A stretch of 20,218 bases of DNA, taken from IMG/VR virus record IMGVR_UViG_3300032731_001350, positions 1 through 20,218 of that record; one strand, given 5' to 3'. Position 1 is the first letter of the stretch, and each line of letters starts with the position of its first letter. This stretch comes from a virus. Below, piece by piece: positions 2,069 through 14,458 of this stretch. A program made the translations under genes and the position numbers. The notes beneath the pieces are model-generated. The model was not told the origin of the DNA. It was given only the letters and a program-made list of their open reading frames with translations, and searched no databases.

Positions 2069-2212
2069 TACTTGCCATGTAGGGCGCGGGTCGGTTGTTA
2101 CGGACTTAGGAATGCCTAACCTTAACGGAGGTCGCCCGAGTTGACAGCAATGATGCGGTGGGCAGCATGGCCGGTCAACGTAAAAACGAGAAATAACAAC
2201 CCTTGGCAAGTA
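2069..2212 (+). ncRNA. Candidate structured RNA with pseudoknot, unassigned class
   Basis: This stretch has no credible ORF on the + strand and is visibly richer in G and C than its flanks. It holds several exact complementary segments: a 9-bp closing stem 2069-2077/2204-2212; 2082-2086/2133-2137 (GGGCG/CGCCC); 2093-2100/2194-2201 (GGTTGTTA/TAACAACC, 8 bp); hairpin 2106-2110/2115-2119 with loop AATG; 2140-2145/2174-2179 (GTTGAC/GTCAAC), enclosing 2153-2156/2165-2168. The 2093-2100 pairing starts inside the 2082/2133 helix and ends outside it, so it makes a pseudoknot. An alternative helix 2097-2103/2120-2126 competes with that pairing, so two exclusive folds are possible. It does not match tRNA, tmRNA, RNase P, or the group I or group II cores I know. 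Structure is seen by pairing only; function is unknown. Confidence 0.6.
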
Positions 2213-2327: not shown

Positions 2328-3920
2328 ATGTTAATGAGAGAATTCGTAGATATAAGCCCTACCTTATGGCGTGATCCGGGATTTCAAGCCCTCCTTGCCG
2401 AGAAGATATTGGAGGAGTTAGATGATGGATCTATGACCCGCCGGGAATGGGAGACTGCTATTTGGCGAGAGTTTATTGAAAAGGTTGCAGATCCCGGCGA
2501 GAAAAAGTTTTATGATGTCCTAATGGTTCTTTTTAGAGGGATGGAGAAGGATATTCTTGGTAAAATGCCAAAAGGTAAGTCTGTCTCTAAAGCGAAGGAA
2601 TCGGATATCGAACATTGGATGTTCTCTGGAAGGCAGTGGAAACAACGTTTTGCACAGCAGGGTGGCGAGGTTATAGAGGGCGTTGCGGTCACCGCCGGTA
2701 GTAGGGCGATGGATAGCATACCTGTTGTGGGTGTTGGCTTTGATGTAACTAATCCGGCTGTCCAGAATCTACTTCAGGCGAGGACAATCAGGTTTGCTAA
2801 AGAGGTTGTAGGAACCACCGAGACACAGATTCGAAAAAGACTAGCCACAGGTATTGCCGCTGGGGAGGGGATGCCGACCCTAAGAAATCGAATCAAGGAT
2901 TACTTCGAGGGTGATGCAATACCGAATCGGGCCGAGATGATCGCTAGGACCGAGACTATTTGGGCCAGTAATGCTGGGGCCGAGGAGGCATACGTTCAGA
3001 GCGGTGTTGTTTCTGGAAAGGAATTTTTAACAGCAGAAGATGAACGTGTCTGTATTTTTTGTAAGGCTGCGGGAGAAAGGTTTGGTGAGGAGCATGGAAT
3101 TAAGCTTGGGGAGGCGTTTTATAAGCTGGGTGATAAGATATCCGGTCATGACTCGGATCTAGATAGGACTGCTACCTATGAGATAACTTATGAGAATGTA
3201 AGGTTTCCGCCTCTCCATGTGCGGTGCAGATGTACATTGATCCCTGTGATTGATGAGAAAGCGGTTGCAAAACCTTTTAAACCGGCCAAAACATTAGACG
3301 AGGCCGAAAAGTGGGTTAAGGATAAAGATTTAGTTGATCAAATTGCGTATAAAAATAGTCGCCCAAAATTTTGGGGTGGTCAATTATTAAGTAAGAAAAA
3401 GAAATTAGAAAAATTTAATATAATTAATTCGGAAATTGATAGGTTCCAGAAAGATTTTAATATCAAATTACCTAAAATATCTATTTTACATATAAATAAA
3501 AATAGAACAGGGAAGGCATCGTATTCATCTAATTGGAAACAAAGACAAATAACATTTGCTGAGGAATGGACATCAAAAGAATGGGATAATATTGAAAATT
3601 GGGAAAAGAAAAATAAAAGAAGGTGGGATTGGATTAAAGATGAAAGCCATATAAAGAAAAATGTTAGGCATGAATATGCTCATATTATAGATGGTGATTT
3701 AAAAATGATATCGTCATCAACGAAATTTGAGAAGGTATTAAAAGATATTTATAAAGCGGGTTTTCATGCCCATAAAATTTCTGATTATGCTAATTCTAAA
3801 CGTACAGAATTTTTTGCTGAAGCTTTTTCTCAATATACAAGTCCCTTTTATAAAAAACATTTGCCTAAAAAACTAGAAAAATTTTTCGAAGAAGAAGTTT
3901 TAGATAGGATAAGAAGATAA
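2328..3920 (+). CDS. MuF/SPP1 gp7-type minor head protein with C-terminal HExxH metallopeptidase domain
   Basis: This encodes about 530 residues if started at ATG 2328 (ATG 2334 is equally possible; neither has a clear ribosome-binding site). A TTG at 2220 would extend the frame but would put the terminator hairpin inside the gene. Residues about 155-310 form the Phage_Mu_F head-morphogenesis domain: RAEMIARTET, then DERVCIFC (C242, C245), then FPPLHVRCRC (C300, C302). Such proteins sit at the portal vertex and can be packaged with the genome. After residue about 330 comes an extra domain with the zincin signature HEYAH (448-452, bases 3669-3683) and a downstream RTEFFAEAFSQY whose Glu (about 498) would be the third zinc ligand. 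Base composition becomes clearly more AT- and Lys/Asn-rich from about 3300 on, as if the tail was acquired separately. This is the layout of MuF polymorphic toxins. A virion-borne peptidase acting on host or capsid proteins is inferred. Confidence 0.8.
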   Translation: MLMREFVDISPTLWRDPGFQALLAEKILEELDDGSMTRREWETAIWREFIEKVADPGEKKFYDVLMVLFRGMEKDILGKMPKGKSVSKAKESDIEHWMFSGRQWKQRFAQQGGEVIEGVAVTAGSRAMDSIPVVGVGFDVTNPAVQNLLQARTIRFAKEVVGTTETQIRKRLATGIAAGEGMPTLRNRIKDYFEGDAIPNRAEMIARTETIWASNAGAEEAYVQSGVVSGKEFLTAEDERVCIFCKAAGERFGEEHGIKLGEAFYKLGDKISGHDSDLDRTATYEITYENVRFPPLHVRCRCTLIPVIDEKAVAKPFKPAKTLDEAEKWVKDKDLVDQIAYKNSRPKFWGGQLLSKKKKLEKFNIINSEIDRFQKDFNIKLPKISILHINKNRTGKASYSSNWKQRQITFAEEWTSKEWDNIENWEKKNKRRWDWIKDESHIKKNVRHEYAHIIDGDLKMISSSTKFEKVLKDIYKAGFHAHKISDYANSKRTEFFAEAFSQYTSPFYKKHLPKKLEKFFEEEVLDRIRR

Positions 3921-4141
3921 TGGGACAGTCAATTCCTCCACATATAGATATTTGTGTAAATTGTAGGAATTATAAAGGATTGCATTTTATAAATTTAAGT
4001 AAGGATATAGAAGATGATTATGTAAATTTTTGTAAGGCATTTTCTGATGAGATTCCTAATGAAATTCTTATAGGAGATAACAAACATACTAAGCCTTTAA
4101 AAGATCAAAAGAATGATATAGTATTTGAACCCATAAAATAA
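3920..4141 (+). CDS. Small Cys-containing protein, candidate immunity partner of the MuF effector
   Basis: This encodes 73 residues. The stop of the MuF gene and this start share one base (TAATG), so translation is probably coupled. It has Cys at 12, 15 and 38 (ICVNC ... FCKAF) and the pattern CKAFSDEIPNEILIGDNKHTKPL ending DIVFEPI. From memory this resembles a family of small phage-associated proteins with a C-C-CxAFPxGIPxEI-H motif, often near head genes, with no function I can name. Its AT-rich composition matches the metallopeptidase tail just upstream rather than the flanking head genes, and a terminator follows directly. This suggests that tail, small gene and terminator move as one cassette. 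An immunity role is inferred from position alone. Confidence 0.65.
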   Translation: MGQSIPPHIDICVNCRNYKGLHFINLSKDIEDDYVNFCKAFSDEIPNEILIGDNKHTKPLKDQKNDIVFEPIK

Positions 4142-4166
4142 CTTAAAACAACCATAACCCAGACCG

Positions 4167-4202
4167 AAAGGCCACTACCAAAAAGGTAGATGGCCTTTTT
4201 TA
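4167..4202 (+). terminator. Rho-independent terminator
   Basis: GGCCACTACC (4170-4179), an A-rich loop and GGTAGATGGCC (4185-4195) form a 10-bp stem with one bulged base, followed by six T. It closes the MuF-effector/small-gene unit 26 bases after the stop codon at 4141. Confidence 0.75.
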
Positions 4203-4246
4203 TTGGAAAAATTGAAAGAAGGAAATAAGTCCGGAGGTAAAACGAA

Positions 4247-7201
4247 ATGGAGCTTATAACGAAACGAATTCCGTTGGAGAATACAAATCTGCCCGACTGG
4301 GCCGCGAAGGCAATGAAGGAGGCTGGGGTTAATCCTGAGGGAGCGGAGCTTGTACGGAAGGGGCTCGTGCCATCGGATACACAGTTTAAGGAAAACGAAA
4401 ATGCGAGTGTCGATTATATAACTACTAAGGCTAGGGATCGAGATAATGAGTTGGTGGTTCCGAAGGGAATAGAGCTGGGTGATTACCGTAAGCATCCTGT
4501 TGTTCTATACTGCCATAATTACAGGCCCGATGATGTACCTCCTGGAAGGAATATGTGGATCAAACTGGACGATAAAGGTTTGGTAGCCAAAACGGAATAC
4601 TTTGTCGGAGACGAGAGTAGTATTGGGCATAAGATATATAATTATAGAAAAGCTGGCTTTCCAATGGCCAAGTCAATAGGCTTTATTCCTATCGAGCAGG
4701 TGGAGGAGGCTGATTTCAAGAACCTGGATCTAAAGGCTTTGGATCTAAACGAGAAGGATCTTGAGGGCGTAAAAAGGGTGTATCCGAGGAGCTTACTTTT
4801 AGAGTATAGCGATGTGCCGGTTCCGAGTAACCCTGATGCCTTACAGTTGGCTGTTTCTAAGGGTTTATTTTTAGATATTGATGATGCAAAGAAATCCGCT
4901 AATGAGGATGATGCGTTTGTGATAGAGATCGTTGAGGATAATAATGAAAAGAAAGGCCGGACATTGATTCGGAACGAGACACCTGGGGAAGAAGGAACCA
5001 TTGAGATAGATATGACTGATACGGTAACAGTATCAAAAGATGAAATGACGGCTGTTGTTGAAAAGGTGACTGAGGAGGTTGCTGAAAAAATTGAAGGGAT
5101 TGGTGTGGATCAGCCTCTGGGTGTTCTAAAGGTCGACGATGAACCCGAGAAGGTTAACTGCCCGGATTGTGATTTTGAATATGCATCTGACGGAGAAGAG
5201 GATGAGTGTCCAAAGTGTGGATCCAAGAAGCCGCCTAGAAAATCTAATAAAGAGGAAAAGCCTGAGGGTGAGTATTATTGTAAGTGCCCTGACTGTGGAT
5301 ATAAGGGGCTGAGTGCGACTGTATGTAGTACTTCCGACTGTCCGGAGTGTGGCAAAAAGATGACCGATGGGGCAGAAGGAGAGGAGAAACCAGAGGAAGA
5401 GAAAAAGTATTTTAATCCATTAAAAGCAAAGACATTTAACTATGAGAACGATGTTGACGAAGAGAAAAATGTAAGATGGAATCCGACTCTTTCAAAGGAG
5501 TTTGATATAGCCGAAGAACCTCTGGAGGCTAGTACTGTGGAGTATGGGCTTATACAGAAGTTTTTGGGCTGTGAGATGAAAAATATCTCAGAGACAACGA
5601 TTACGATACCGTCTGTTTCAATTGGTAATTATTTAAGTGGATTAAAGGTTGCAGTAAAGGATTGGGAAGTTCAGGATGTTCGGAATATTGGCTATGACGG
5701 GACAGAGAGACCTCCGGCTAGATCGGTTATTCAGCTTAACTCTAAGATCAGTGAAGAGTTTTTAATTGAGGGAACAATTTTTTATAAGGCATACAAGGAG
5801 AAGGAAGCCAATGAAATAGAAATAGAGAAGATCCCTATTGTTATGAAGCGGAGACCATCATGGGGCGGTCTGGTACTAACGATGTTCGTTGAACACAAGC
5901 ATATTGGTGTTTACTATAAGGCTATGAACATTGTTCACAAGTGGATCGAGGAGAACAACTGGCTGAAAGGAGAGAGGTTCTCCCTTAGTGGGCAGTTTAT
6001 TGAGAAAACAGATCATAACTGGGATGATGTATTCCTAACTGAGAAGAATATTAAGGCGCTTCAACTATCTCTTAGATCGTTGGAGAAAAAGAAACAGCAT
6101 GCTCCGAATAGAGGACTTTTATTGATTGGACCTCCTGGTACAGGTAAAACTCTGTCTGGAAGGATTATGGCGAACGTGCTTGATGATGTAACGTTTATAT
6201 GGATATCCGCTAGGGATTTTTATAGGAGTGGGGCTGCTGGAGGGATAGGATTTGGATTTGATATGGCTCGTAAACTGGCTCCTTCTATTTTATTTGTAGA
6301 GGATATTGATAATTGGCTTCATGCACGAGCCACCGATCTATTAAAGACCGAGATGGATGGATTGAAACAGTCCACCGGTGTTGTTACTATGCTGACAAGT
6401 AATTATCCGGAAACTTTGCCGGATGCCCTGATAGATAGGCCTGGTAGATTTCATGATGTTCTAAATTTCGATCTACCTGACTCAGATATTCGTTCTAAGA
6501 TGATTCAGAAATGGACCGGAGGGCAGGTGGTAGAGAAGGATCTGGATGGTTTTGTTTCTGAGACTATAGGATATAGTGGGGCACATATTTACGAGTTAGT
6601 TGCGTTTGCAAAATCCCTAATGGAGGATGATGAAGAGTTGGAGATGCCCGAAGCTGTTAGAATGAGTTTGAGAAAAATTGAGGAACAGAGGGAGCTGATA
6701 TCTAATGTTAGGGGTGAGAAAAAAGAACTTGTTGAGCATCTAGTTGAGATTGATAAGAATGTGGAATCAGATACGACCTTTTATATAATTGACGAGGAAG
6801 GTAAGATTAAGGCTCCTCAGGAAGATTTTGTAGAACTGGATTTTATAAATAAAGATGATAATCAAATAATAGAGCTGACGGATGATTTGGTTGAGAAGGC
6901 AGGAAGAGTTATATCAGCCAAGAATCGGAAAACAATTCAGTCGGCTATTGACGGAATGGATCAGGCCACATTGGCATTAAAGGCTTTAATGTCTGCTACA
7001 GAGTTATCCGAAGAGGATGATAGTGGTCCGGCTGTGGACATTTCGAGGGATATAGATGTAAAACGGATTTTAAAAACGGTTAAGGAATCCTTAACGGAGG
7101 CTCAGAAGGAAAATCTTAAGGATCTGAAATCGTCAGTTAGTGGAATGATCGACGAGCGTCTTGATGTTGCTCGTGGTCGTGTTATACGGAGAAGGAGCTA
7201 A
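4247..7201 (+). CDS. Fusion: HK97-type prohead protease, two zinc ribbons, AAA+ ATPase, coiled tail
   Basis: This encodes 984 residues. The ATG follows CCGGAGG at spacing about 9. Residues about 50-215 form a phage prohead protease (S78/U35 type): RDRDNELVVPKG, VVLYCHNY (His90), FPMAKSIGFIP (Ser143) and the closing LLLEYSDVPVPSNPDA. Residues 305-324 and 347-368 are two zinc ribbons (CPDC...CPKC and CPDC...CPEC). After a linker and an alpha/beta domain (about 405-600) comes a full AAA+ module: Walker A GPPGTGKT (628-635), Walker B ILFVEDID (681-688), sensor 1 Asn719, arginine fingers in DRPGRF (730-735) and GYSGAH for sensor 2 (775-780). Residues about 800-984 are acidic coiled coil with a basic C-terminus (RGRVIRRRS), like a scaffold or delta domain. 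Prohead proteases usually have about 200 residues and no ATPase. The gene lies directly before the capsid gene, so it should act in procapsid assembly. The frame is intact, with no sign of a frameshift joining two genes. Confidence 0.88.
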   Translation: MELITKRIPLENTNLPDWAAKAMKEAGVNPEGAELVRKGLVPSDTQFKENENASVDYITTKARDRDNELVVPKGIELGDYRKHPVVLYCHNYRPDDVPPGRNMWIKLDDKGLVAKTEYFVGDESSIGHKIYNYRKAGFPMAKSIGFIPIEQVEEADFKNLDLKALDLNEKDLEGVKRVYPRSLLLEYSDVPVPSNPDALQLAVSKGLFLDIDDAKKSANEDDAFVIEIVEDNNEKKGRTLIRNETPGEEGTIEIDMTDTVTVSKDEMTAVVEKVTEEVAEKIEGIGVDQPLGVLKVDDEPEKVNCPDCDFEYASDGEEDECPKCGSKKPPRKSNKEEKPEGEYYCKCPDCGYKGLSATVCSTSDCPECGKKMTDGAEGEEKPEEEKKYFNPLKAKTFNYENDVDEEKNVRWNPTLSKEFDIAEEPLEASTVEYGLIQKFLGCEMKNISETTITIPSVSIGNYLSGLKVAVKDWEVQDVRNIGYDGTERPPARSVIQLNSKISEEFLIEGTIFYKAYKEKEANEIEIEKIPIVMKRRPSWGGLVLTMFVEHKHIGVYYKAMNIVHKWIEENNWLKGERFSLSGQFIEKTDHNWDDVFLTEKNIKALQLSLRSLEKKKQHAPNRGLLLIGPPGTGKTLSGRIMANVLDDVTFIWISARDFYRSGAAGGIGFGFDMARKLAPSILFVEDIDNWLHARATDLLKTEMDGLKQSTGVVTMLTSNYPETLPDALIDRPGRFHDVLNFDLPDSDIRSKMIQKWTGGQVVEKDLDGFVSETIGYSGAHIYELVAFAKSLMEDDEELEMPEAVRMSLRKIEEQRELISNVRGEKKELVEHLVEIDKNVESDTTFYIIDEEGKIKAPQEDFVELDFINKDDNQIIELTDDLVEKAGRVISAKNRKTIQSAIDGMDQATLALKALMSATELSEEDDSGPAVDISRDIDVKRILKTVKESLTEAQKENLKDLKSSVSGMIDERLDVARGRVIRRRS

Positions 7202-7277
7202 GAAGCGTTAGGTCCTTGACGGGCCGGAGATGCCTTATGGAGAAAATAAATATTAATTTTATGGAGGACAATTGATT

Positions 7278-8603
7278 ATGGGTGAGAAATTAAATATGAG
7301 TCAGCTTGAGGAAATGATCGGTAACGCCGTCAAAGATTCGGTAAAGCTGTTAGCGGACGAGCATAAGGTGTCCATGGACGAGATCAAGGATGAAGTTGAC
7401 GAGAAAATCAAAGAGATTGTGGATCAGATAGGTGTCGGTGGAGAATCCATTGAGCAGAAAAGAGCCAGAGTATTAGTAGATACCGAGGAAACGGACGTTA
7501 GCGGACTACCTAACTTGGCCAAGGACCCTACAGGAGGATTTTACACTCTTTCGCAGTTTGCGCATGATGTCTATAAGACAACCAAATCTGGATATCGGAC
7601 CATTTCTCCCGAGCTTAAGGCATGGGAAGAGGTTACCAAAGCCGCAGATGCAACCACATTGTCTACAGATGATGCCGAGTATGGTGGATTTTTGATTCCG
7701 CCTGAGTTTAAGAATGAGCTTTGGCTTGCGGTTGAACAGAAAAATGAGATCCTGCCTCGGTGTACAAACGTTCCGATGAGGGTTAATACCATTAAGATTC
7801 CTTATGTCAATGGTTTTGATGAGAGTGGTGGATTGGTATATGGAGGAATTGAATGGAAGTGGCTAGATGAGCTTGCGGCTAAAACTGCATCACGCCCCAA
7901 GATTGGACGGATCACCTTAAGTCTGAAAAAGATAGCAGGATTGGCTTACTCTTCGGATGAGTTGTTAGAGGATAGCCCGATCTCGATGGAGAACATTCTT
8001 AAGAATGGTTTCCGTGACGGGCTTAATTTTCAGATCACTCGGGCACTTATTCGGGGAACAGGCGCAGGTCAACCTCTAGGAGTTCTAAATGCACCTTGTT
8101 ATCATGGGATTACGATTGAGACCGGACAGGCAGCCTCTACGATAGTCTTCGAGAATATTATTAAAATGTATGCAGCTATTAATGATAGCGGAAATGCGAT
8201 ATGGCTCGCAAATGAGAATACCTTGCCTCAGCTGGCAACAATGGCTTTGGATGTAGGGACAGGCGGCGTTCCGGTATTTATGCCCGCTAATGGGGCTGCA
8301 GGGATTCCTTATAATACCTTGATGGGCCGTCCGTTGGTATTTAACAAACATTGCTCTACATTGGGAACTGCCGGGGATATACTCCTGGTGGATTGGAGTC
8401 AGTATCTTGTTGGAATGAAGGCTGGTCAGGGAGCGACAGGTAAGTTTGATACTTCTATTCATTTGAAATTTGCCGACGATCAGACTGCTTTTAGGTTTGT
8501 ATTTCGGATTGATGGGCAGCCCTGGTGGCCTACATACCTGACCCCACCTCAGGCGACGACTGATTATATCAGTCCTGTTGTTGGGTTGGATGCAAGGGCA
8601 TAG
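7278..8603 (+). CDS. Major capsid protein, HK97 fold
   Basis: This encodes 441 residues. ATG 7278 lies 10 bases after GGAGG (7263-7267); a TTG at 7272 would add two residues but is too close to the ribosome-binding site. Residues 1-65 are a charged coiled coil, typical of the delta/scaffold region removed by the prohead protease. The rest matches HK97-type capsid proteins: DDAEYGGFLIPPEF opens the folded core, RITLSLKKIAGLAYSSDELLEDS is the E-loop/spine region, LIRGTGAGQPLGVLNA is the classic glycine-rich motif, and the A-domain ends with GRPLVFNKH...GDILLVDWSQYLVGMK. Size is normal for the family. The gene directly follows the fused protease and is followed by a hairpin with a T-run, so it is likely the most abundant product of the operon. 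Confidence 0.93.
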   Translation: MGEKLNMSQLEEMIGNAVKDSVKLLADEHKVSMDEIKDEVDEKIKEIVDQIGVGGESIEQKRARVLVDTEETDVSGLPNLAKDPTGGFYTLSQFAHDVYKTTKSGYRTISPELKAWEEVTKAADATTLSTDDAEYGGFLIPPEFKNELWLAVEQKNEILPRCTNVPMRVNTIKIPYVNGFDESGGLVYGGIEWKWLDELAAKTASRPKIGRITLSLKKIAGLAYSSDELLEDSPISMENILKNGFRDGLNFQITRALIRGTGAGQPLGVLNAPCYHGITIETGQAASTIVFENIIKMYAAINDSGNAIWLANENTLPQLATMALDVGTGGVPVFMPANGAAGIPYNTLMGRPLVFNKHCSTLGTAGDILLVDWSQYLVGMKAGQGATGKFDTSIHLKFADDQTAFRFVFRIDGQPWWPTYLTPPQATTDYISPVVGLDARA

Positions 8604-10127: not shown

Positions 10128-10333
10128 GAAAAAATGAATTTACGAAGATAAAACTGAAGACTGAGTGGATGGGTAATCCAAAGGGACATACAATGACAAT
10201 AAAAAAGGCTACGGCTGATATACTTATCTCCAGAGGTGCTGCGAAACTTCTTAAGGATAAGGAAGAAAAGACAGAGAAAATGCAGGCTCCGGCGAAGCAT
10301 AGAATGTTGGCTAGGGCTGTTAAATCCAAATAA
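10124..10333 (+). CDS. Small basic phage protein
   Basis: This encodes 69 residues and overlaps the previous gene by four bases (ATGA). It has the pattern EWMGNPKGHTMTIKKATADILISRGAAKLL followed by a charged basic tail. Similar short proteins with a GNxxG...A..LI.RGAA pattern are common beside phage head and connector genes, but I cannot name a function. A small virion or connector-associated role is likely from position only. Confidence 0.65.
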   Translation: MRKNEFTKIKLKTEWMGNPKGHTMTIKKATADILISRGAAKLLKDKEEKTEKMQAPAKHRMLARAVKSK

Positions 10334-10362
10334 TTCCACAGGTGGTTTAAACCCATCGGGAG
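10334..10362 (+). repeat. Leader cassette copy 1 (hairpin plus ribosome-binding site)
   Basis: First of three copies of a roughly 29-base element, TTCCACA + GGTGG TTTAAAC CCATC + GGGAG. The hairpin arms are GGTGG and CCATC; compared with the other copies the right arm has T for C, which still pairs as G-U in RNA. It ends 8 bases before the ATG at 10371. Confidence 0.85.
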
Positions 10363-10370
10363 AAAACAAT

Positions 10371-11126
10371 ATGCACAGAATAAATAGTAAAAGCGTAGGA
10401 GGTTGGTTGGCTTTTACCTCTGGAGCCCCAACTAGAGAGATCCTGAGTCTGCCGGGGGATAAGGGAGGAGTCTCTAATTTCACTCAGCTTCGAGCGATGC
10501 ATATTAGTCCGGAATTGGCCTATGGTCACTTTGACGATTTTACACCGAGCGATCTTGTAGGGACATCGTCTTTGCCTGGATATACTGCAACGGCTGTCGG
10601 TGCTAGTACTTTAGTGATGGCTGATGCCGCTACAGGAGTGCTTCAGTTAACCTCGGGAGGGACGGAGAATAATGGTATCCAGATCCAGACAGACGGTGAG
10701 ATATTTCTTCCTGCCGCCAATAAGGATATATGGTTTGAGTGTAGGGTAAGAGGAAATGATGTAACGGAGGTTGATTGGTTTATAGGGCTATGTACAACAG
10801 ATACCTCTATTATCGCAACAAATCCTGATGATGCTATTGGCTTCTGGACTCATGACGGGGATGTAAATATTGATTTTGAGGTTTCTACAGGGACGGGAAC
10901 CCCGACAGATACGGGAGATGATCTTGCCAATAATACATGGGTTCAGTTGGGTTTTTATATTAATGGTGTTACGTCTGTGACTCCGTACATTAACGGAACG
11001 GCTGAAACTGCAATTACGGCGGATATTCCAGCTGTTGAGATGGCCCTATCTTTTGCTTGTCTAACTGGGGAGGGTTCGGTTAACCGCTTAGATATAGACT
11101 GGTACAAGATTGTACAATTGAGATAA
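10371..11126 (+). CDS. Jellyroll/lectin-like virion surface protein, paralogue 1
   Basis: This encodes 251 residues. The ATG at 10371, 8 bases after GGGAG, is chosen because it lines up with the start of the paralogue at 11172. The N-terminus (RINSKSVGGWLAFTSGAPTREILSLPGD) may be a virion-anchoring part. Residues about 50-250 look like a concanavalin/LamG-type beta sandwich: GEIFLPAANKDIWFECRVRGNDV, DWFIGLCTTDTS, DDLANNTWVQLGFYINGVTSVTPYINGT and a final LDIDWYKIVQLR. Such folds on phage surface proteins often bind carbohydrate. It shares its whole length with the next gene. Confidence 0.7.
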   Translation: MHRINSKSVGGWLAFTSGAPTREILSLPGDKGGVSNFTQLRAMHISPELAYGHFDDFTPSDLVGTSSLPGYTATAVGASTLVMADAATGVLQLTSGGTENNGIQIQTDGEIFLPAANKDIWFECRVRGNDVTEVDWFIGLCTTDTSIIATNPDDAIGFWTHDGDVNIDFEVSTGTGTPTDTGDDLANNTWVQLGFYINGVTSVTPYINGTAETAITADIPAVEMALSFACLTGEGSVNRLDIDWYKIVQLR

Positions 11127-11171: not shown

Positions 11172-11948
11172 ATGGCACATAGGATTAGTGCAAAAGATGC
11201 TGGCGGATGGATGGCATGGTATTCAGGGACTGAAAATAAGGAAATTCTCTCTCTTCCGGGAGACGTAACAGGAGTTGCAAATTTTAATCTTTTGAGGTCT
11301 ATGCATGTTAGTCCAGAATTAGCCTATGGAATGTTTGAGGATTTTGCTCCGTCGAAAATAGTTAGTACATCGTCATATCCTGGCTTTACAGTGACTGCTA
11401 TTACAACTGGAACTTTAGTGATGGCGGATAGAGTAGGGGGTTGGCTTCAGTTGACTCCCAACAACTCTACCGGGCATGGGGTCCAAATGCAATCAGACGG
11501 TGAGATATTTCTTCCTGCCGCTGATAAGGATATATGGTTTGAGTGTTCGGTGAGGGGAAATGATATTACAAAGGTTAATTGGTTTATCGGATTAGCTACT
11601 ACGGATACGGATATTATAGGTAGTAATCCGGCGGATCTTATTGGATTTCATACCCATGACGGAGATGCTAATATTGATTTTGAGGTTAGCGCAACTGCTG
11701 GAGCTGGTTCAGAAGTTGATACCTTGTCTGATCTCTCTAATAATACAGCGGTCAGACTGGGGTTTTATGTGAATGGGGTGACTTCGGTGACGCCTTATAT
11801 TGATGGAACAGCAAATACTACGGCAACCTCAACTACGGTTGCGAATATTCCAGCAGTAGAGATGGCTCTGTCGTTTGCTTGTACTACAGGGGAAGGACAG
11901 GTTAATACATTGGATATAGATTGGTACAAGATTGTACAATTAAGATAA
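11172..11948 (+). CDS. Jellyroll/lectin-like virion surface protein, paralogue 2
   Basis: This encodes 258 residues. ATG follows GGGAGG of leader copy 2. It is collinear with the preceding gene (AKDAGGWMAWYSGTENKEILSLPGD; SPELAYGMFEDFAPS; DGEIFLPAADKDIWFECSVRGNDITKVNWFIGL; and the same ending LDIDWYKIVQLR). Differences cluster in loops such as NPADLIGFHTHDG and the Ala/Gly/Thr-rich insert around residue 180. The two look like a tandem duplication that has diverged, with blocks of exact DNA identity (for example 10690-10717 and 11494-11521). It probably forms a second virion surface protein, possibly of different ligand specificity. Confidence 0.7.
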   Translation: MAHRISAKDAGGWMAWYSGTENKEILSLPGDVTGVANFNLLRSMHVSPELAYGMFEDFAPSKIVSTSSYPGFTVTAITTGTLVMADRVGGWLQLTPNNSTGHGVQMQSDGEIFLPAADKDIWFECSVRGNDITKVNWFIGLATTDTDIIGSNPADLIGFHTHDGDANIDFEVSATAGAGSEVDTLSDLSNNTAVRLGFYVNGVTSVTPYIDGTANTTATSTTVANIPAVEMALSFACTTGEGQVNTLDIDWYKIVQLR

Positions 11949-11995: not shown

Positions 11996-13417
11996 ATGGC
12001 AGAACTTAAAACAAAAACACCTTTATTTGTTAGAAAACAGAAAGGAGGTATGTTTACGGTTGTTAATGAGTCGATGACCACGGGAGATATTTGGTTTGTT
12101 GATTCTGGGAAGACCACTACTGGGGCGGATTCAGCGAGTTATGGAAGAAGTCCGGATGCGCCGTTTTTGACTCTTGATTATGCTGTAACTCAAGTGACGG
12201 CGAATAATGGAGACCGGATCTATGTGATGCCCGGCCATGCTGAGAATGTTGCTAGTGCCGCTGATATTGCGGTTGCAATAGCGGGGGCTCATATAATAGG
12301 GATTGGTGGTGGTGCTGATAGACCTACTTTTACGTTCACGGCGACTGCAAGCACCTGGACAATTACGGTAGCCTCAGTCACACTGGAGAATTTACTCCTG
12401 GTAAACGCGATAGATAATCTCAACAATGGGCTGGTTATATCTGGAGCTGATTGTTTTCTGAATAATATAGAGACGAGAGATAATAATGCCTTATATCATG
12501 CGGATGATTTTATCGCTGCTGCTGCTGGTGCTGCCCGCCTTCATATAGACGGATGGCTCCATAGAGCAGGAGCAGGAAAAACTGGGGCGATTTCAGCGAT
12601 AGCACTCGATGGCGTTGATGATCTAATTCTTGAGAATTTTCATGTTCAGGGAGAGTTTTCGGTTGGATGTATTGATAATACAACAGGGGCAGATGAGGTT
12701 TTAAGAGCTTCTATTAAAAGAGGGACTTTAATTAATACGGCCACTCAGCCTGGAATAGATGCTGATACTGATGCTACTGGGGTTGTGGAAGATGTCTATA
12801 TTAGGGTTGCTTCTGGGACAACTTATATTGATAGCGCTCCAAATTTCTCTTATGTTAATTGTTTTGGGATGAGCACTGATTCCAGTGGATGGGAGAGAAT
12901 TGGGACTGAGATAGCAGGGTCTATTGAAGGCCAGATTTCTGATATTGCTGATGAGATGAGTATAGTTGAAACCATAGTTTCTGATGCAGCCGAGCTTCTC
13001 TCTGATATGAATAGCGATATTGTAGCTATAGAGGGCAAGGTTGATGCGGTAGAAACTATAGTCTCAGATGCAGCCATAGCCATTGGTGTAGTCGAAACTT
13101 ATGTTTCTGATGCGGCTGAGACCCTCTCAGATATAGGCTCTGATATAGTGGCTATAGAGGGAAAAATTGATGCGGTCGAGACCATAGTCTCAGATGCAGC
13201 CATAGCCATTGGTGTAGTCGAAACTTATGTTTCTGATGCGGCTGAAACTCTCTCTGATATAGGAAGTGATATAGTGGCCATAGAGGGAAAAGTAGATGCT
13301 TTAGAAACTATTTGTTCTGATATTGAAGCTACACTTGGTACTCATTTAACCGCGTGGGCTGCGTTTGAAACTATTATGTCAGACTTTGTAGCAAAATATA
13401 CGTCTGATGTGCCGTAA
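11996..13417 (+). CDS. Beta-helix fibre/spike-like protein with C-terminal heptad repeats
   Basis: This encodes 473 residues. The start is set by leader copy 3 (GGGAGG, 10 bases upstream). Residues 1-30 are a short basic N-terminus, possibly for attachment. Residues about 30-300 look like a right-handed parallel beta-helix, opening with DIWFVDSG...GRSPDAPFLTLDYAVTQVTANNGDRIYVMPGHAENV, the usual start of pectate-lyase-like phage proteins, and continuing with repeated strand-turn units (ASVTLENLLLVNAIDN, DDLILENFHVQGEFSV). Residues about 310-455 are tandem heptads (SDIVAIEGKVDAVETIVSDAA) that should form a trimeric coiled coil. The DNA has a 126-bp repeat there. Beta-helix trimers with coiled-coil stalks are typical of tail spikes and head fibres that bind or cut surface glycans. 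No catalytic residues could be identified. Confidence 0.75.
   Translation: MAELKTKTPLFVRKQKGGMFTVVNESMTTGDIWFVDSGKTTTGADSASYGRSPDAPFLTLDYAVTQVTANNGDRIYVMPGHAENVASAADIAVAIAGAHIIGIGGGADRPTFTFTATASTWTITVASVTLENLLLVNAIDNLNNGLVISGADCFLNNIETRDNNALYHADDFIAAAAGAARLHIDGWLHRAGAGKTGAISAIALDGVDDLILENFHVQGEFSVGCIDNTTGADEVLRASIKRGTLINTATQPGIDADTDATGVVEDVYIRVASGTTYIDSAPNFSYVNCFGMSTDSSGWERIGTEIAGSIEGQISDIADEMSIVETIVSDAAELLSDMNSDIVAIEGKVDAVETIVSDAAIAIGVVETYVSDAAETLSDIGSDIVAIEGKIDAVETIVSDAAIAIGVVETYVSDAAETLSDIGSDIVAIEGKVDALETICSDIEATLGTHLTAWAAFETIMSDFVAKYTSDVP
12961..13321 (+). repeat. Tandem 126-bp repeats encoding heptads
   Basis: Two nearly identical 42-residue (126-bp) units plus partial units on both sides. 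A 62-base block at 13058-13119 recurs exactly at 13184-13245. Each unit equals six heptads, so adding or losing a unit keeps frame and coil register. Confidence 0.9.
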
Positions 13418-13441
13418 ACAATAAAATGAAAGGTAGTAAAT

Positions 13442-14458
13442 ATGAAGGTAGCACATTTTGCTATTTTTGCACCTCACGGCTCTGGCCAATATGAGACTGT
13501 TAAAGATCTTATATTGGCCGAGAGATCCGTGGGAATTGATGCTCAGTTTGTGGATTTTGGATCTGATAAAAAAGGAACCAATCGAAATGAACTAAGTGAC
13601 GGAGAGGTTCATACAGTTCCTCTTGCTTGGGCTTTTGATGAGGCGGATATTGTAGTCCGCCATACATCTATTCCTGAGAAGATTTTAGATGAGAAGCCTG
13701 TAATATGTGCGCTGCATGGGAGACCTGAAAACTCCTTTAGATTGGAGCAGTATAAAACAGCGTTTGTTATTTCTTCTTTAAGAAAGGCAGCAAGTGAAGG
13801 GAAGCATAAGGCATTTATAACATTCTGGCCTGAGTATCTATTTTACTGGTCAAGAATGCTAGGGATTAAGATATTTTTTGTTCCTCCTCCGGTAGATTTG
13901 AATACATATATTCCAGATGGACTTCGACATAGTTTTGGAAAGCATGAAGGAAGTCCAAATATTGTTGTTGCTGATAGATGGAGGGAGGATAGAACTCCAT
14001 TTAATCTGATTTTTGCAGCACAGTACTTTAGAGAGAATTTCTATCCAGATGCGAAACTCCATATATACGGGATTTCGATTACTAAATCAAGCGCTATTAA
14101 CTTTTTTGCCCGTATGCAGAAGAGAAAGAATAATGGAGTGGTTGGACAAACATTTGGGGTGATGGCGTATATAGCGGACGTATATAGAGGTGCCGACTTT
14201 ATTCTTACCCCGAATATGATTGCGACCAGGATAGTGAGGGAGTCGATGGCTAGTGGATTACCAATGGTAGCACCGCTTGGCTGTCAGTATACACCTTTTA
14301 CTGCGGAGCCGAGGGATTTAAAATCATTTGCCTTGGCAATGAAGGAATGCTGGGAATATCCGACTGACCACATTGCTTTAAGAAAACAAGCAAAGGATCT
14401 CTTTGGTCCCGAAAAGGTCGGACAGATGATGAAGCAATTACTGGAGAGATTCGCTTAA
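13442..14458 (+). CDS. GT4-like glycosyltransferase
   Basis: This encodes 338 residues. ATG follows AAAGGTAG. The GT-B fold shows an N-terminal Rossmann part (MKVAHFAIFAPHGSGQYETVKDLI), a linker with the typical VPPPVDLNTYIP (147-158) and a C-terminal donor domain with TRIVRESMASGLPMVA (262-277), where Glu267 belongs to the EX7E-like nucleotide-sugar site. It should transfer a sugar from a nucleotide donor to a glycan, lipid or protein; the specific sugar cannot be told. It is the first gene of the glycan cluster, 24 bases after the fibre gene, which links it to virion decoration or host-surface change. Confidence 0.75.
   Translation: MKVAHFAIFAPHGSGQYETVKDLILAERSVGIDAQFVDFGSDKKGTNRNELSDGEVHTVPLAWAFDEADIVVRHTSIPEKILDEKPVICALHGRPENSFRLEQYKTAFVISSLRKAASEGKHKAFITFWPEYLFYWSRMLGIKIFFVPPPVDLNTYIPDGLRHSFGKHEGSPNIVVADRWREDRTPFNLIFAAQYFRENFYPDAKLHIYGISITKSSAINFFARMQKRKNNGVVGQTFGVMAYIADVYRGADFILTPNMIATRIVRESMASGLPMVAPLGCQYTPFTAEPRDLKSFALAMKECWEYPTDHIALRKQAKDLFGPEKVGQMMKQLLERFA

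Follow-up and report, generated by a model that had tools for sequence, protein, structure and literature searches.

Phage morons are accessory genes sandwiched between genes that phages conserve; many of them bring a promoter and a terminator of their own. The viral DNA analyzed here (the window, 20,218 bases) carries a cassette that is like the morons in its insertion between genes adjacent in relatives, its deviating base composition, and its terminal terminator; it is unlike them in that its terminator is preceded by a candidate structured non-coding stretch, no clear promoter was found, and its genes have no known family. This stretch, positions 2069-2212 on the plus strand, also invites comparison with the terminator-ended small RNAs of bacteria and phages that derive from 3′ untranslated regions (UTRs). 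A structured domain, a pyrimidine-rich linker, and a terminator with a T-tract are common to both, but the candidate described here is without a homologue.

A third comparison concerns helix topology. HDV-like ribozymes are known in phages in the form of theta ribozymes, which often adjoin tRNA genes and in which J4/2 opens with the catalytic cytosine (PMC10879173). In R2 ribozymes, P1 is typically 6 or 7 bp and P2 at least 5 bp, P1.1, P3, and L3 are conserved, and P1′ lies directly 3′ of the P3/L3 element (PMC3774820).

The explanation that we favor tentatively, giving it somewhat less than an even chance, is that a moron-like cassette here terminates its own transcription, with 2069-2212 as its untranslated, structured 3′ end, and that a small RNA may result. 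That this is a structured non-coding stretch ending at the terminator is plausible.

The insertion between the portal and MuF-type head genes

PHROGs matches place the end of the portal gene at positions 1-579 of the window, the end of the MuF-type minor head protein frame at 3920, and the major head protein gene at 7272-8603. Among the relatives that we fetched by their major head protein and in which the portal end is readable, there is little space between the portal stop and the next gene, and no comparable RNA lies there; this makes 580-2325 an insertion in this lineage, an arrangement that favors the moron-like 3′ end. Read on the plus strand, this insertion of ∼1.75 kb comprises AT-rich small open reading frames (ORFs), then a GC-richer stretch, and finally a terminator with a 12-bp stem. 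The start of the head gene sits tight against the portal stop in relatives, whereas here it is an ATG at 2328 or 2334, directly behind the terminator, and no clear ribosome-binding site belongs to it.

The cassette is unlike its neighboring phage genes in base composition: GC content is 0.22 to 0.44 over 580-2060, compared with ∼0.45 to 0.50 in the core head genes. Four small plus-strand ORFs (808-1110, 1124-1576, 1591-1899, and 1912-2058; together spanning 808-2058) show only weak, sub-cutoff family matches, and we found no relative of the ORF at 1124 in IMG/VR or in phages, nor of the ORF at 1591 in phages. An AT-rich block with small ORFs that have no family is consistent with a moron-like cassette; the region's 11 promoter-like sites do not exceed the number in shuffled sequence (13.2 expected), which counts against it. 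A 15-mer, GGTTTAAGAAAGGAG, made up of a stop codon or TAA plus a ribosome-binding site, is repeated ahead of three successive cassette ORFs (788-802, 1104-1118, and 1570-1584), as if the cassette had grown by copying of gene borders.

GC content begins to rise to ∼0.5 at position 2069 and is 0.53 over 2069-2212. A sequence-only reading of this DNA had described the stretch as GC-richer; this is accurate relative to the upstream insert, but not relative to the core head genes, which it resembles. The 2069-2325 part of the insertion does not deviate from the neighboring phage genes in this respect, a point against its belonging to the cassette, and the stretch may have a separate origin. GC skew speaks for the explanation that we favor: it falls to ∼0 over 2101-2400, as expected of non-coding structured sequence, while the surrounding genes are strongly G-skewed.

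An intrinsic terminator closes the block at 2279-2322 on the plus strand. Its GC-rich 12-bp stem, GCGAAGGGCTCC/GGAGCCCTTCGC (2279-2290/2304-2315), encloses a 13-nt loop, is followed by TTTTT at 2318-2322, and is present in all predicted folds; a simple terminator scan missed it because that scan was limited to loops of 8 nt. Judged by sequence, this is a terminator belonging to the cassette itself, and a scan of 23 related loci turned up nothing comparable, which again favors the moron-like reading. A minus-strand match to the hairpin ribozyme at 2287-2320 (15.8 bits against a gathering score of 65; E = 1.6) sits on this terminator stem and was rejected.

In the linker before the terminator, the plus-strand motif CCUCCUU (2266-2272) is complementary to Shine-Dalgarno sites. 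Predicted duplexes with 19 start regions of this phage have energies of −9 to −22 kcal/mol; calculated with no shuffled control, these energies indicate nothing beyond the shared Shine-Dalgarno motif, and we regard pairing in trans with ribosome-binding sites, which could occur, as a lead only.

Under the explanation that we favor, the insertion that separates the portal gene from the MuF-type minor head gene would be an accessory cassette, and transcription of its small ORFs would run on into 2069-2212. There, the transcript would fold into a closed RNA domain, with a 9-bp outer helix, inner hairpins, and possibly a pseudoknot, before stopping at the strong intrinsic terminator at 2279-2322. 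Fold and terminator together would end the transcript and may protect its 3′ end, and a small RNA of ∼150 to 260 nt could be released. If expressed, the stretch, now a candidate without relatives, would be one more orphan non-coding RNA ending a phage accessory cassette; its expression would also raise the question of how head-gene transcription in this phage gets past a strong terminator inside the head operon.

Pairing, folding, and coding potential of positions 2069-2212

The complementary pairs claimed for this stretch are all present, as exact Watson-Crick pairs on the plus strand: an outer helix of 9 bp (2069-2077/2204-2212), an inner helix of 8 bp (2093-2100/2194-2201), hairpin stems of 6 bp (2140-2145/2174-2179, in hairpin 2140-2179) and 5 bp (2106-2110/2115-2119, in hairpin 2106-2119), and a possible crossing helix of 5 bp (2082-2086/2133-2137). 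Their presence supports a structured 3′ end. Because the 5-bp crossing helix crosses the 8-bp helix, the strand order claimed for the stretch, with its one pseudoknot, likewise holds as a potential of the sequence, and a pseudoknot is possible on paper.

Energy rules nevertheless prefer a nested fold. The best nested structure of 2069-2212 has an energy of −50.4 kcal/mol; it lacks the 8-bp helix, and GGUUGUUA (2093-2100) pairs locally in it. A scaffold with both long helices and with the bases of the crossing helix (P1) left free reaches −41.0 kcal/mol, to which P1 contributes ∼−12.3 kcal/mol of stacking before any pseudoknot penalty. With an assumed value for this penalty, we estimate the pseudoknot fold at roughly −44 to −46 kcal/mol, higher than the nested fold by a difference that is within the error of the energy rules; the pseudoknot is thus possible but not favored by them. 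The energy of folds without pseudoknots gives a z-score of −1.5 for 2060-2225; the two strands of 2060-2325 score −1.4 (plus) and −3.2 (minus). The plus-strand values are modest and the minus-strand value is stronger, which weakens the case for a plus-strand 3′ end and makes the choice of strand less than certain.

The two mutually exclusive pairings of 2093-2100, and a terminator placed within an operon of essential head genes, would also suit a cis-acting attenuator or antiterminator, in which the domain sets polymerase passage into the head genes, for example by holding GGUUGUUA in either the long-range or the local helix. We consider this unlikely: neither pairing involves the terminator stem, which forms whichever fold is adopted, the element has no homologue, and relatives do without it.

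How much the pairing says about selection depends on the background chosen. It had been called unlikely by chance, and for the fixed 144-nt stretch this stands: two disjoint perfect helices, one ≥9 bp and the other ≥8 bp, occur in 16 of 20,000 dinucleotide shuffles. Measured against related phage DNA it does not: 150-nt stretches with such helices number ∼2.3 per 20 kb there, and a second one lies in the window itself, around 13369-13540. The exact 9/8/5 layout of outer, inner, and crossing helices has a frequency of 2.3 per Mb of strand in relatives and of 1.7 per Mb in block-shuffled DNA, so that ∼0.1 would be expected in both strands of the window. The pairing is suggestive, in that it hints at a selected RNA but does not alone prove one.

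Chance pairing in spacer DNA is accordingly a serious rival, even if we judge it rather unlikely: there would be no selected RNA, only chance complementarity before a real terminator, noticed as the best-looking stretch of 20 kb. The frequency of comparable stretches in related phages, the modest z-score, a nested alternative that beats the pseudoknot, and conservation found nowhere all fit such a spacer. The rarity of the helix pair among shuffles and of the layout per window speak against it, as does the position of the stretch in a GC-raised, skew-free gap directly 5′ of the terminator.

Contrary to its description as ORF-free, the stretch is overlapped by a plus-strand ORF of 51 codons (2141-2296), whose TTG start lies 9 nt after GGAGG (2127-2131). 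With its plausible ribosome-binding site, this ORF tells against an untranslated 3′ end. Its codon score of −0.056 falls between the 5th percentile of coding sequence (−0.068) and the 95th percentile of non-coding sequence (0.022), and so neither demonstrates coding nor rules it out. A minus-strand ORF of 27 codons (2258-2175) begins with an ATG shortly after a textbook AAGGAGG, the same bases as the plus-strand CCUCCUU. A coding element in one or the other, with mRNA structure as a by-product, would account for Shine-Dalgarno-like sequences well placed on both and for the ambiguous score of the first; we think it improbable, given that the minus-strand ORF has a codon score equal to the mean of non-coding sequence and that ORF 2141-2296 has no family match and extends into the terminator stem.

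Comparison with ribozymes and search for relatives

The stretch shares with HDV-like and theta ribozymes the strand order P1, P2, hairpin, P1′, hairpin, P2′, and its potential P1 and P2 helices cross as they do in HDV. This part of the topological likeness that had been pointed out is accurate, but the remaining features differ. P1 is ∼6 to 7 bp in HDV-like ribozymes and here 5 bp, with neither Watson-Crick nor G-U pairs available to lengthen it. The P3 hairpin of HDV-like ribozymes is joined directly to P2; here, one hairpin, with a CCU/AGG stem (2120-2131), adjoins P1′, but 18 nt that include an extra hairpin separate it from P2. A 2-bp P1.1 helix is not possible between the loop UAACGG and the two bases that follow P1′, and an HDV-like descriptor gave no hits with P1.1 on either strand. 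J4/2 starts with a cytosine in HDV-like ribozymes, whereas the first base after the 6-bp P4 is G2180 here; C2179 could serve only upon opening of the outer P4 pair. The stretch further differs in its long junctions, its extra outer helix, and the absence of a tRNA beside it, and no catalytic core was found.

A self-cleaving ribozyme of HDV-like topology would be in keeping with the strand order and with the presence of HDV-like ribozymes in phages (PMC10879173). However, P1.1, the P1 length, the flush P2/P3 junction, and the first-position J4/2 cytosine were not found, and both the descriptor and Rfam (HDV-like models unmatched at E up to 10) are negative, on which grounds we rejected this candidate. 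Ribozyme function is unsupported, and we keep for it a very small probability because the lack of a family match could also mean a far relative. Group I introns were rejected as well: Intron_gpI (RF00028) was negative on the window, also at a relaxed threshold on 560-2340, while the same Rfam library finds three group I introns in a related locus, L034, as a positive control.

Searches of the window with Rfam covariance models, which had been suggested as a check, brought no family support. No family reached its gathering score, and relaxed thresholds yielded only chance matches (E up to 10), which agrees with the description of the stretch as an unassigned RNA. The window contains no tRNA or tmRNA. 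Searches for relatives were also negative, to be read with the proviso that the collections may omit records very near the window: 2069-2212 had no match beyond chance in 36 relatives (blastn and nhmmer) or in 117 related loci (blastn), pattern scans of IMG/VR with four pieces of the stretch found nothing, and a single-sequence covariance model, R1, run against the related loci gave a meaningful score for the window alone. Similarity matches in phage and plasmid DNA were short pieces (16 to 22% of the query) with E values of 0.1 to 6, as expected by chance. R1 also matched one of 199 Planctomycetota genomes; this match is a long, near-perfect palindromic hairpin, and we rejected it because the hairpin matches on both strands. 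A loose topological descriptor was uninformative, with about 900 matches in relatives.

No homologue was found, hence neither conservation nor covariation backs the fold or its pseudoknot, which weighs against the moron-like 3′ end that we favor. A new class of pseudoknotted RNA, carried on a phage accessory cassette, with a cis or trans effect on late gene expression, and without a relative in the collections searched, has in our estimate only a slight chance of being correct; antitermination and binding of ribosome-binding sites may be examples of its action.

Other head-region genes of the window and its relatives

The MuF-type minor head protein (2334-3920) has an AT-rich C-terminal extension, from ∼3330, that carries an HEYAH motif and a weak, sub-cutoff match to an ATLF metallopeptidase-like Pfam domain; MuF appears here to be fused to a variable enzymatic tail. 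It is followed by a 73-codon ORF (3920-4141), a short piece of which matches behind the head gene of L027.

Between the head genes, a protein of 984 residues (4247-7201) combines a prohead-protease-like N terminus, a zinc-ribbon-like part, an AAA+ ATPase domain (Pfam AAA; E = 7e-19), and a conserved C terminus. In L004, L005, and L007 only its ends match, and the AAA+ part seems to be absent.

Some relatives have interrupted head genes. The three group I introns of L034 (RF00028; 73 to 86 bits) lie at 3118-4388 in one major head protein gene and coincide with breaks in the protein match. Interruptions of ∼1 kb also occur in the head gene of L012 (4243-5231) and in the portal gene of L022 (2672-3825), where no Rfam intron reached its gathering score.

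Farther downstream in the window, the tandem ORFs 10236-11126 and 11172-11948 have protein products with clear similarity to each other (for example, HRINSKSVGGWLAFTSG and HRISAKDAGGWMAWYSG), a recent-looking duplication.
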